A stretch of DNA of 64,000 bases from Nitrospirota bacterium. Lineage in GTDB: Bacteria > Nitrospirota > Thermodesulfovibrionia > Thermodesulfovibrionales > Dissulfurispiraceae. The stretch is from the NCBI GenBank assembly GCA_021792185.1, contig JAJYVD010000005.1:1-64000 (forward strand). The letters are read 5' to 3'. Positions 49,849 through 55,784 of the stretch are shown here, in pieces (the stretch's first letter is position 1; every line of letters begins with the position of its first letter). A model generated the notes under the pieces. It worked only from the letters and a program-made list of their open reading frames with translations. It ran no database searches and had not been told where the DNA came from. Position numbers and translations under genes: made by a program.

Positions 49849-50838
49849 ATGGAAAAAGTAATCATCCTCCTCGGTCCCACAGGGGTCGGAAAGACAGCGG
49901 CATCCATACTTCTCGCTAAGCGCTTAAATACGGAAATCATAAGCTCGGACTCGATGCAGATATATAAACATATGGATATAGGAACGGCAAAGCCGACCAT
50001 TGAGGAAAGGGAAACCGTAAAACACCATATGATAGATATTGTCGAGCCGTGGGAGACATATAGCACAGGGGAATATATAAAAGCTGTCCGGCCGATAATA
50101 GAAAGCCTCCATGAGCAAAAGAAGATTCCGGTAATCGTCGGAGGAACAGGGCTTTACATAAAGGCGATGACAAGGGGCATTTTCAGCGGCCCTTCTGCCG
50201 ACTGGGATTTAAGAAACGAACTCCTCGAAAAAGAGAAAGAGTCTCCCGGATATTTACATGAATACCTGAAATCTCTCGATCCAAAAGCGGCATCAAAGAT
50301 AATGCCTGCCGACACGAGAAGGATTGTAAGGGCATTGGAAGTCTGCCTGAAAAGCGATATGGCGATGTCGGAAATTCATAAGACATTAACAATCCCCCTG
50401 CCCTACGAATTCGTCAAAATAGGAATCACGCGGGACAGAAAAGAGCTTTACAGGATAATCGAACAAAGGGTGGATAAGATGATAGAAGACGGGCTTATTG
50501 ATGAAGTCAAAAATGTAATACAAATGATTAAGGAAAATGGCTATAGGCAAGAGGCTATAGGCCATAAGGAGGACGAGTCTTTACCTATTGCCCATCGCCT
50601 ATCGCCCATCGCCTATTCATCCATGCAGGCAATCGGCTATAAGGAAATAGCTATGCATCTGAACGGTGAGATCAGCCTTGACGAAGCAATCGCGCTTGTG
50701 AAAAAGCGCTCAAGGAATTACGCAAAGAGGCAGTTCACATGGTTTAAAAAAGAAGAAGAAATTCAATGGATTGATGCGACAGGAATTTATGAGCCGGATG
50801 AAATATTCAAGAAGGTGATACAATTTATTCATGCCTGA
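49849..50838 (+). CDS. miaA: tRNA dimethylallyltransferase
   Basis: This enzyme prenylates A37 of tRNAs reading UNN codons. The P-loop LLGPTGVGKTAAS, SSDSMQIYKHMDIGTAKP, VGGTGLYIKAM and RRIVRALEV are intact. At 329 residues it carries an insert of about 27 residues just before SMQAIGYKEI, encoded by heptamer repeats. The start at 49849 matches the conserved P-loop start. It overlaps the DUF72 gene by 8 bp. Confidence 0.95.
   Translation: MEKVIILLGPTGVGKTAASILLAKRLNTEIISSDSMQIYKHMDIGTAKPTIEERETVKHHMIDIVEPWETYSTGEYIKAVRPIIESLHEQKKIPVIVGGTGLYIKAMTRGIFSGPSADWDLRNELLEKEKESPGYLHEYLKSLDPKAASKIMPADTRRIVRALEVCLKSDMAMSEIHKTLTIPLPYEFVKIGITRDRKELYRIIEQRVDKMIEDGLIDEVKNVIQMIKENGYRQEAIGHKEDESLPIAHRLSPIAYSSMQAIGYKEIAMHLNGEISLDEAIALVKKRSRNYAKRQFTWFKKEEEIQWIDATGIYEPDEIFKKVIQFIHA
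50538..50618. repeat. heptamer repeat insert inside miaA (81 bp)
   Basis: Five 7-bp units run from 50584: CCTATTG, CCCATCG, CCTATCG, CCCATCG and CCTATTC. A degenerate set in roughly inverse orientation (AGGCAAG, AGGCTAT, AGGCCAT) lies before it at 50544-50568. Together they add 27 codons and keep the frame. Confidence 0.8.
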
Positions 50839-51556
50839 GTTAAGGATTGGCTGCAGCGGATTTAATTATCGGGATTGGAAGGATAACTTCTATCCTCCCG
50901 ATCTGCCGCAAAGAAAATGGTTTGAATATTATTGCACAGTCTTTAACACAGTCGAATTAAACGTCACATTTTACAGGCTTCCGCTCGCAAAGACCTTCGA
51001 CAAATGGCATAATGAAACACCCGATGACTTCGCGTTTTCGCTAAAGGGAAGCAGATTTATAACGCATATAAAAAGGCTTATCGAACCCGAGAAGCCTTTG
51101 GAATTATTCTTTGAAAGGGCCTTGCGTTTAAAGGAAAAGCTCAAAGTCGTCCTCTGGCAATTCTCTCCCGGATTTAAGGCTGATATCGAGAGATTAACAT
51201 ACTTCCTGAAACTGCTCAAAAAATATCCTGCAAGAAATACCCTCGAATTCAGGCACGAAAGTTGGATAATAAAAGAAGTCGTTGATTTATGCAAAGAACA
51301 CGGCGTGAGCCTCTGCATGGCTGATTGGCCTGAGTTTATTGATGACCTACCTGTAACTTCCGATTTCATCTACATAAGGAGGCACGGCAAAGAAGGGAGC
51401 TATGCCACTTGTTATTCAAAGGCCGAACTTAAGAAAGATGCAAACCGGATAAAAAATTATTTAAAAGATAGAAAGGATGTTTTCATTTATTTCAATAACG
51501 ATTATCACGGTTATGCTCCGAGGAACGCGGGGAAATTGAGAAAGATGGTGCGATGA
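50831..51556 (+). CDS. DUF72 family protein (TIM-barrel)
   Basis: This 241-residue protein has the family start RIGCSGFNYRDWKDNFYP, NTVELNVTFYRLP, LEFRHESW and the C-terminal YFNNDYHGYAPRNA. Conserved acidic and aromatic residues suggest a catalytic barrel, but the reaction is unknown. It overlaps miaA by 8 bp and is probably cotranscribed. Confidence 0.88.
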   Translation: MPELRIGCSGFNYRDWKDNFYPPDLPQRKWFEYYCTVFNTVELNVTFYRLPLAKTFDKWHNETPDDFAFSLKGSRFITHIKRLIEPEKPLELFFERALRLKEKLKVVLWQFSPGFKADIERLTYFLKLLKKYPARNTLEFRHESWIIKEVVDLCKEHGVSLCMADWPEFIDDLPVTSDFIYIRRHGKEGSYATCYSKAELKKDANRIKNYLKDRKDVFIYFNNDYHGYAPRNAGKLRKMVR

Positions 51557-51565
51557 AGAATAAAG

Positions 51566-52888
51566 TTATAAGAAAAATAATTTGTGTTTGGCTGTTCTCC
51601 AAGCACTTCCAACAAATATCGGAAGAGCAGAAATAAAATAGTCACGCCTGCAAAGAATGCCGTTCTTCTTCCCTGTTGCCAACTCCTTTTCATACGGGCA
51701 ACCTCCACCACACATCGGCAAGAAAGCACATCTGCCTTCTATGCATCCTTTCAAATCCCTCACCCGCCGACTAAGAGCTAACGATTGACCGGAATGGTCG
51801 GATCCTCCTCTCACATTTCCGAGTGAAAAAGAATCCATACCAAAGGCGCTGATACAACTCCGTAACGAGCCGTCCGGCTCCAATAAATAACTGGACCCCC
51901 TGAAGGCCATGCACGGTGTATTAAATACGGCCGATAGGTCAACTTCAATATTGCGCTCTTCGGCTAATCGACAGATCAAATCGAAAGATTCTGCAAGACG
52001 CGGATCATTACTGCCGAACTCCTCCTTCAGATTTATCATTTCTACACCGTAAGGTCGATATCTTACAATGGGTTCCGGTTTTATTCTAAAATTCTTTTCT
52101 TTTCGCGCAGAAATACGAGACAAATCATCCATAAACATAGGAATTGACTTAACCGTCTCCGGTGTAAAATTCAATTTAATTGTCAATTCTGAAAGTTCCG
52201 CTAACATGGGTAAGCGTGATAATGTTTCATGGTAAACATCGGTAACTTTATGGCTCTTACGGCGTGCATTAGTAACCGAGGCATCTCCATCAAAGCTAAC
52301 TTGCACCTGAGTCACGCCCAATTTGCATAACTGCTTAAACAAAGAACTATTACCAATTAATGCATTAGTGGTCAACAATATTGCACCTTTGCAAATATCA
52401 TGCTTCTCACGGATATTCGCAAGCCCATTCAATAGGCTCATCAATCGATCAGGAGCAAGGAGAGGTTCTCCGCCGAAAATTATTACGTCCAAATCGGAAA
52501 ATCGTTTTTTTGCAAATTGCTTTTCTAACCAGCGAAGAGAAAGGTCAAGCGTTTCCGCTGACATAATAGACCTTCTTGTTCGATTTTCAAAACAGTAGGA
52601 ACACTTGAGATCGCAACTCGTAGCAACAGTAAATATAAGATACATTCGCCGACTATGCGTGACCAGAGTATTAACAATCGACATGGCTTCGTCCTCATGG
52701 GTGCTGTCGACCAGAAACCCTAATTGTGCAAGCCGACGACGCTGGTCAAAATTAAAGTCCATAACATTAGTTAAGCCGCCTGGGACGCAAACCATATTGC
52801 CTGTAAAGGCATTAAAAAGAACTGATTCACCGCTGACATCGATGCGATGATTAAATAAACTATCACGCTGTTTTTGCTTTCCAGCCAT
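51566..52888 (-). CDS. radical SAM/SPASM peptide maturase
   Basis: This 440-residue protein has an N-terminal segment like that of RiPP maturases (SVLFNAFTGNMVCVPG). The radical SAM cluster motif CDLKCSYC, the glycine motif IIFGGEPLLAP and a C-terminal SPASM region with cysteines in SLRSCIS, CIEGRCAFLPMCGGGCP and LCRRDY follow. SPASM enzymes install cross-links or other changes on peptides using SAM and extra Fe-S clusters. The ATG at 52888 is chosen; a TTG at 52933 overlaps the ribosome site of this region. The small gene directly upstream may encode the substrate. Confidence 0.85.
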   Translation of the reverse strand: MAGKQKQRDSLFNHRIDVSGESVLFNAFTGNMVCVPGGLTNVMDFNFDQRRRLAQLGFLVDSTHEDEAMSIVNTLVTHSRRMYLIFTVATSCDLKCSYCFENRTRRSIMSAETLDLSLRWLEKQFAKKRFSDLDVIIFGGEPLLAPDRLMSLLNGLANIREKHDICKGAILLTTNALIGNSSLFKQLCKLGVTQVQVSFDGDASVTNARRKSHKVTDVYHETLSRLPMLAELSELTIKLNFTPETVKSIPMFMDDLSRISARKEKNFRIKPEPIVRYRPYGVEMINLKEEFGSNDPRLAESFDLICRLAEERNIEVDLSAVFNTPCMAFRGSSYLLEPDGSLRSCISAFGMDSFSLGNVRGGSDHSGQSLALSRRVRDLKGCIEGRCAFLPMCGGGCPYEKELATGKKNGILCRRDYFISALPIFVGSAWRTAKHKLFFL

Positions 52889-52933
52889 CTTGAATGAAGG
52901 CTGCCGGCTATGCCGGCGGCCTTCTCCTCCCAA

Positions 52934-53143
52934 TTATTTCCTCTTAATTATTTCTGCTGCCTTACATGCTTCAAGCCAGCTTGCTTTGACTTTCGGGGCT
53001 GTTCCCCTCAAACTGTGAAGTAAAGTCTGAATAGCAAATGCTTCATCTGCCGTTACCTCAAACACTTCCTTTGTTTTACCTACTTTGTCTTCCATCGTAA
53101 GTGTTACGCGCGGCTTTGGTCTTGACACTTTTTTGACTGCCAT
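52934..53143 (-). CDS. small protein, candidate maturase substrate or partner
   Basis: This 69-residue protein starts MAVKKVSRPKPRVTLTMEDK and ends EACKAAEIIKRK. It has a strand-rich first half, a helix around ADEAFAIQTLLHSLRG, one cysteine near the end and lysine-rich termini. An AAGGAGG site precedes the ATG. It lies 45 bp upstream of the SPASM maturase start on the same strand. I do not recognise the family. It could be a precursor peptide, a recognition protein or unrelated. Confidence 0.65.
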   Translation of the reverse strand: MAVKKVSRPKPRVTLTMEDKVGKTKEVFEVTADEAFAIQTLLHSLRGTAPKVKASWLEACKAAEIIKRK

Positions 53144-53429
53144 TTCTGAACCTCCTTTTTATCCCATATTTTTATAAATTAGACATTACTTGGGATTTGT
53201 AATAATGCCTAACATCCATTATACGAACTTCCAGTTTTCCATTTATGGTTAAACTATAGCACATCTGAAGCAATCTTCAAAGTGGAAATACCATAAAAAT
53301 CAACCGATATCCGTTTGCTCGAAAATAGAGATAAACTTTCCTGTTTTCTCTCTCAATAATTCCCCTCTTATGGAGGGATTAGAGGCGCATTTAAGGGGAC
53401 TAAGATTTCTTGGTATGATATAGTATTTT
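53144..53429. other. intergenic region between the small-peptide gene and uvrC
   Basis: No gene is seen in this 286-bp gap. It holds the minus-strand promoter described at 53253-53280, leaving an untranslated leader of about 100 bases before the small gene. A plus-strand promoter for uvrC must lie near its right end but is not obvious. Confidence 0.5.
53253..53280 (-). promoter_or_regulatory. sigma70-type promoter for the small protein/maturase pair
   Basis: On the minus strand TTGAAG (53280-53275) and TATAGT (53258-53253) are separated by 16 bp. The start codon lies about 110 bp further on. Confidence 0.6.
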
Positions 53430-55203: not shown

Positions 55204-55497
55204 TTACAGAATATTCTCTAATTGCTGTGCTCCGTGAGAGATTGCAACAATCTCAATAATCTCATCCTTAATACGATAGACAATTCTATAATTCTCATAA
55301 ATCTTCTCTCTCAAATTAGCATCACTATATTCCGGAACAATGCGCCCTGCTTTTGGAAAATGAGGAAGGGTTTTAACAATCGAGACAATTTTCTTGGCGA
55401 AGAGAGCAGCGTAATATCTTGAATCTTTTGCTATGTAATCACATATTTCTTCAAAATGCGAAGCAGCCTTTGGAGACCATTTTACGCTGTAAGCCAT
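55204..55497 (-). CDS. RelE/ParE-family toxin
   Basis: This 97-residue protein has the ParE/RelE layout: VKWSPKAASHFEEICDYIAKD, FPKAGRIVPEY and ENYRIVYRIKDEIIEIVAISH. The mode of toxicity (mRNA cleavage or gyrase poisoning) cannot be decided by eye; the N-terminal helix pattern favours ParE. It overlaps the antitoxin gene by 16 bp. It is convergent with uvrC. Confidence 0.87.
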   Translation of the reverse strand: MAYSVKWSPKAASHFEEICDYIAKDSRYYAALFAKKIVSIVKTLPHFPKAGRIVPEYSDANLREKIYENYRIVYRIKDEIIEIVAISHGAQQLENIL

Positions 55498-55670
55498 TTG
55501 GACATCCGCTTTTCAATTTCTTCGTGTGGAATTCCCTTGCCCTCATCTAATTCCTTTAGCCCTGCATCAACTTGCAGCCTGAAATACAACTCAGCCATAA
55601 TATCATCAATCGAGACCTCTTCGGGTAGCGATTGAATCATCTGAATAACCTGTTGTTTTACGCCTGCCAT
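55482..55670 (-). CDS. antitoxin of the second RelE/ParE pair
   Basis: This 62-residue protein starts MAGVKQQVIQMIQSLPEEVS and ends with the toxin-binding helices LQVDAGLKELDEGKGIPHEE. The ATG at 55670 is chosen because AGGAGG lies nine to ten bases before it; an upstream start at 55715 has none. It is of the short addiction-module type without an obvious DNA-binding domain. Confidence 0.8.
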   Translation of the reverse strand: MAGVKQQVIQMIQSLPEEVSIDDIMAELYFRLQVDAGLKELDEGKGIPHEEIEKRMSKWLTA

Positions 55671-55784
55671 CTGAATGTCACCTCCTCTGCATCCTTTTAA
55701 CTCATTATAAAACATTTCTCAATAAAGGGACATAATTTTGTTTACCGCTTTCAGCGCAAGCGGATCCCTCAGTTTGCGGAAGTG

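Follow-up and report, generated by a model that had tools for sequence, protein, structure and literature searches.

A 69-residue ORF and a SPASM radical SAM gene, both called on the minus strand of the 64,000-nucleotide stretch of Nitrospirota DNA analyzed here (the window), form a two-gene unit (Table 1) that introduces a new family of precursors and a new clade of maturases; the pair is real, co-conserved and of a recognizable kind, and is unnamed in the libraries searched. Both ORFs were found as described in the first-pass annotation, the span of which covers the unit, and in the window they are flanked by miaA and a DUF72 gene on one side and by uvrC on the other. Since the two genes are conserved together in two unrelated genomic contexts, the sequence comparison strongly supports an enzyme-substrate relationship, and there is thus a strong case that the small protein would be the substrate of the maturase.

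Table 1. Coordinates of the features of the two-gene unit in the window.
Feature	Position	Strand	Basis and remarks
Small protein gene	52934..53143	-	69-aa ORF call; putative precursor or substrate
SPASM radical SAM maturase gene	51566..52888	-	440 aa; family models, alignments; nearest family TIGR04280
Ribosome-binding site of small gene	53144..53158	-	AAGGAGG, 6-8 nt before ATG, by sequence
Promoter-like site	53253..53280	-	TTGAAG-N16-TATAGT, TG before -10; consensus match 9/12
Strong intergenic hairpin	52896..52924	-	Between GGAGGA ribosome-like site and maturase ATG; MFE; proposed role

The second context was identified by scanning about 85,000 species genomes with the maturase, a method that detects fairly close relatives only, so that more distant pairs may exist undetected; of the four loci returned, one was close, namely a 6.8 kb contig of a Betaproteobacteria MAG (DOVS01000005.1, here L039). 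This contig encodes a maturase of 443 aa with 46% identity to the window maturase over nearly the full length and, 82 bp upstream, a 61-aa ORF that lacks annotation but has a ribosome site (L039:1118-1303) and that matches the window small protein at 47% over 58 aa (pairwise E 2e-18). Co-occurrence of the two genes, which had been suggested as a check, was thus seen in the sole close relative, with the small ORF adjoining the maturase in the same order, and the RiPP hallmark of a small precursor gene conserved beside a modifying enzyme is present at both loci. Apart from the pair, L039 encodes a phosphoesterase fragment, ankyrin repeats, DUF188, an SDR enzyme and GrpB; these share nothing with the scanned neighbors in the window, and no third gene common to the two loci was found, indicating that the two genes alone make up the conserved unit. 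In agreement with the first-pass annotation, no dedicated exporter or protease gene was observed among the scanned nearest neighbors of the pair in the window, nor in L039. S41 and M23 peptidase genes are located 6-8 kb from the window pair in an apparent ftsX cell-envelope cluster. Just beyond uvrC, a ParE-like toxin gene (Pfam PF05016) overlaps a 77-aa upstream ORF (55204-55715, minus strand), and the two are likely to be a parDE-type toxin-antitoxin pair.

At the thresholds used, neither gene was found elsewhere in the order to which the genome belongs (176 genomes), and within the genus the pair is present in one of the three species searched. When 396 genomes of the phylum and 349 of the order of L039 were searched with a profile built from the two small proteins, no further true match was obtained, and the maturase profile had no match among 150 relatives of L039. 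Widespread occurrence of the small protein without the maturase had been named as an observation that would speak against the pairing, and a lone small protein was seen in none of about 745 genomes. In the sister species G017, whose uvrC is 88% identical, uvrC directly follows miaA, and DUF72 as well as the pair are missing. Other genera of the family usually have miaA-DUF72, with neither the pair nor uvrC after it; DUF72 (50831-51556 in the window) follows miaA with an overlap in several of these genera. In viral contigs, neither gene had relatives of useful identity, plasmids gave no convincing match to the small protein and maturases of only about 25% identity, and phages, searched with the L039 small protein, gave noise only. 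The unit is therefore a rare accessory cassette, and its presence is most simply explained by transfer.

The promoter claimed for the unit was partly upheld: a site with an extended -10 lies about 100 nt before the ATG of the small gene and fits the consensus, but it is not statistically distinguished from chance, as eight promoter-like sites occur in the region and 4.8 +/- 2.4 in shuffled sequences. A 13-bp inverted repeat (GTTAGGCATTATTAC / GTAATGTCTAAT, 53177-53213) is also present in the leader of the small gene; it is a possible operator or hairpin, the fold of which is not significant (z -0.85), and no Rfam elements were found in the region. Between the two genes, a strong 29-nt hairpin was predicted; the stretch that was folded has an MFE of -26.4 kcal/mol and a z of -3.3. 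A genomic repeat is ruled out, as the genome has a single copy of the 15-nt core of the hairpin. Looping out of the hairpin would place GGAGGA at a normal spacing of 7-8 nt from the maturase ATG, and the hairpin could hold synthesis of the enzyme below that of the substrate. The corresponding region of L039 has no comparable hairpin (z -0.68), and the ribosome site of its maturase is about 6 nt from the ATG.

The small protein (MAVKKVSRPKPRVTLTMEDKVGKTKEVFEVTADEAFAIQTLLHSLRGTAPKVKASWLEACKAAEIIKRK) has a single cysteine, Cys60, and the good ribosome site reported for its gene was recognized. It had been described as unlike known precursor families, and searches of Pfam, NCBIfam and PHROGs likewise returned no match. 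Weak PDB matches to glutaredoxin (E 0.01) were rejected, a PADLOC match to a 4TM effector (E 0.008) was regarded as noise, and matches at E 0.001-0.01 (L003-L009, L047, L048) were discarded because they corresponded to parts of ORFs of >200 aa, mostly CBS-domain-like by eye. The description as lysine-rich applies to the window copy (11 K, pI 9.9) but not to the family, as the L039 protein has 5 K, a pI of 5.2 and no basic N-terminal extension. A low-confidence fold model (pLDDT 56) consists of a beta-hairpin (residues 12-31), a helix (32-45), a linker and a C-terminal helix, and the latter contains ASWLEACK at residues 54-61. In the one pairwise comparison that the two known members allow, the identical residues number 10 of 22 for the hairpin, 6 of 15 for the helix, 7 of 8 for ASWxEACK and 1 of 7 for the tail; the best-conserved stretch thus holds the sole cysteine, and a conserved motif, as sought in the small protein, is present, whereas conservation does not extend to the tail or to the lysine-rich N-terminus. 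W56, E58 and the single cysteine are invariant in both proteins, and the context of Cys60 is CKAAE (CX3E) in the window versus CKIMN (CX3N) in L039.

For the maturase, a start at ATG 52888 (440 aa) is more likely than one at TTG 52933 (455 aa), which directly follows the stop codon of the small gene, because 440 aa matches the length of the L039 relative. The radical SAM cysteines (CX3CX2C; C92-X3-C96-X2-C99) and all seven SPASM cysteines (326, 345, 382, 387, 393, 397, and 413) are invariant in an alignment of nine sequences, as is general for SPASM maturases. The best family model was that of the geopeptide maturases (TIGR04280), followed by PapB, CefB, TIGR04463 and Clo7bot, all far under their cut-offs, and L039 behaved similarly. 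In a test for a leader-binding (RRE) domain at the enzyme N-terminus, the N-terminal region aligned with TIGR04280 from position 14 and the wider maturase-family profile with 8vpo from residue 9, the predicted model of the enzyme being poor (pLDDT 49). PADLOC matches to viperin covered the radical SAM core only and were dismissed. In the SPASM part, the window and L039 enzymes carry CX4C versus CX2C in 31/31 other aligned maturases, and in a maximum-likelihood tree they form their own clade on a long branch with 100/99 support. The enzyme had been called an orphan with some overstatement, since it is distantly related to geopeptide maturases, of which the phylum has many.

The geopeptide system (maturase TIGR04280, precursor TIGR04229) is the closest enzyme family by score and has the layout of the window pair, with a short precursor encoded directly before the maturase. 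However, the window and L039 enzymes reach 151 and 152 bits against a cut-off of 400, whereas two of the many geopeptide-type maturases carried by genomes of the phylum were tested and scored 567 and 585 bits. The precursors upstream of several geopeptide-type maturases of the phylum are about 28-66 residues long with a CC core (e.g., MKRITVLDKGAKKEEMTMACCKSGPTRG); geopeptide precursors are short and CC-ended, in contrast to the window partner, which has 69 residues, one cysteine, no CC and no NCBIfam (TIGR04229) match, and their maturases have the CX2C spacing and not the CX4C of the separate long branch. Two further observations concern this group. At four loci of the same phylum (L021:1162-1278, L022, L028, and L037), the geopeptide-type precursors have CC near the end and a long leader that is rich in Lys and Ala and resembles histone H1 (e.g., MAAKKGAKAKKKVVKKGGAKKSSVKIACCPGGAGASRR), and one of these was tested and had no NCBIfam match, indicating that the family model misses that one. 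Six other loci (L012, L019, L020, L034, L024, and L033) encode a separate maturase clade with a CGGGCR SPASM motif and no clear CC-ended precursor seen upstream, the L012 enzyme scoring 292 bits to TIGR04280, which is under the cut-off.

Other characterized systems resemble the pair in part. PapB of the PapA/PapB ranthipeptide system (freyrasin) is related to the window maturase over the radical SAM and SPASM parts, but its model (NF047865, cut-off 340) gives 108 bits for the window and 94 bits for L039, and PapA has six cysteines compared to one in the window precursor. The Cys-to-Asp/Glu acceptor logic of PapB might hold for CKAAE of the window protein; CX3D/E is, however, not kept in L039. 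The nearest solved structure to the maturase is CteB (5wgg) of the CteA/CteB SCIFF system (thermocellin), yet SCIFF precursors have six cysteines in about 45 residues versus one, and TIGR03974 scores 61 bits against a cut-off of 425. QhpD is a SPASM enzyme that introduces Cys-Asp/Glu thioethers into a small protein and not into a natural-product peptide (PMC8326336), which is the likeness here, but the window maturase scores 52 to TIGR03906 against a cut-off of 453, and no quinohemoprotein dehydrogenase genes were found among the scanned window neighbors. Furthermore, the SPASM enzyme NxxcA forms a single Cys thioether, from Cys23 to Asn20 (PMC8326336), and PapB acts on minimal, single-motif substrates (PMC9413430).

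We consider it probable that the two genes encode a substrate and its maturase, as a cassette of the RiPP or protein-modification type, in which the Cys60 motif is modified, most likely by one thioether. The N-terminal part of the small protein (beta-hairpin and helix, GKTxExxxxTxDEAFxIxxL) would be a leader or the domain by which the enzyme recognizes it, and the enzyme would generate a 5'-deoxyadenosyl radical and modify the C-terminal ASWxEACK; the SPASM cluster would bind the Cys60 thiol, and the thioether would most likely link Cys60 to a carbon of a nearby residue. The support is moderate for ASWxEACK as the site and weak to moderate for thioether chemistry at Cys60. The families nearest to the maturase are peptide maturases, several of which form thioethers (PapB, SCIFF), and a single Cys60 thioether is our leading guess because the nearest characterized enzymes form Cys thioethers and single-Cys links are documented. 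As L039 has CX3N, conservation does not extend to a CX3D/E link of the PapB type, and since E64 of the window protein is Asn in L039, the conserved acceptor candidates are S55, W56, E58, A59, and K61. The absence of exporter genes at the two loci is compatible with the proposed action of the product inside the cell. More speculatively, and rather improbably, the product may be no secreted peptide but the intact small protein with one radical-made cross-link at ASWxEACK, serving inside the cell as a protein-derived cofactor or switch and spread as a two-gene cassette.

The main alternative as to chemistry is a side-chain cyclophane at W56-E58, or another C-C link within S-W-x-E, with Cys60 being structural or a cluster ligand. 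The invariance of W56 and E58 fits such a link, as does a weak similarity of the maturase to the cyclophane maturases YhhB, FxsB, and GrrM; however, the models of these score far below those of geopeptide, PapB, and CefB, and the cysteine is equally invariant, making this reading unlikely. Epimerization or Cys-free changes are possible as other chemistries. Alternatively, the small protein may be a free-standing recognition or carrier partner, with the true substrate elsewhere in the cell, as could be suggested by its predicted beta-hairpin and helix domain, by its not having the usual short leader-core look, and by the lack of a protease or exporter close by. Against this, the fold was predicted with low confidence, no third gene is common to both loci, and conservation is highest in the C-terminal Cys motif, as would be the case for a modified core; we regard such a role as equally doubtful. 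The restricted distribution, with the unit in one of the three species searched in the genus and nowhere else among the 176 genomes of the order, might indicate that the unit is a relic, or that a transferred SPASM gene came to stand beside a spurious ORF by chance. This is largely refuted by L039, where a homologous small ORF with a ribosome site is found at the same place; moreover, the cluster motifs are intact and conservation is at the protein level, leaving this explanation highly implausible compared to a substrate-maturase cassette.

In conclusion, the precursor family is defined by a single-Cys motif, and its maturase clade has a SPASM cysteine spacing that is absent from the aligned relatives. 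If modified as proposed, the pair would be a minimal two-component system for the radical cross-linking of a small folded protein.
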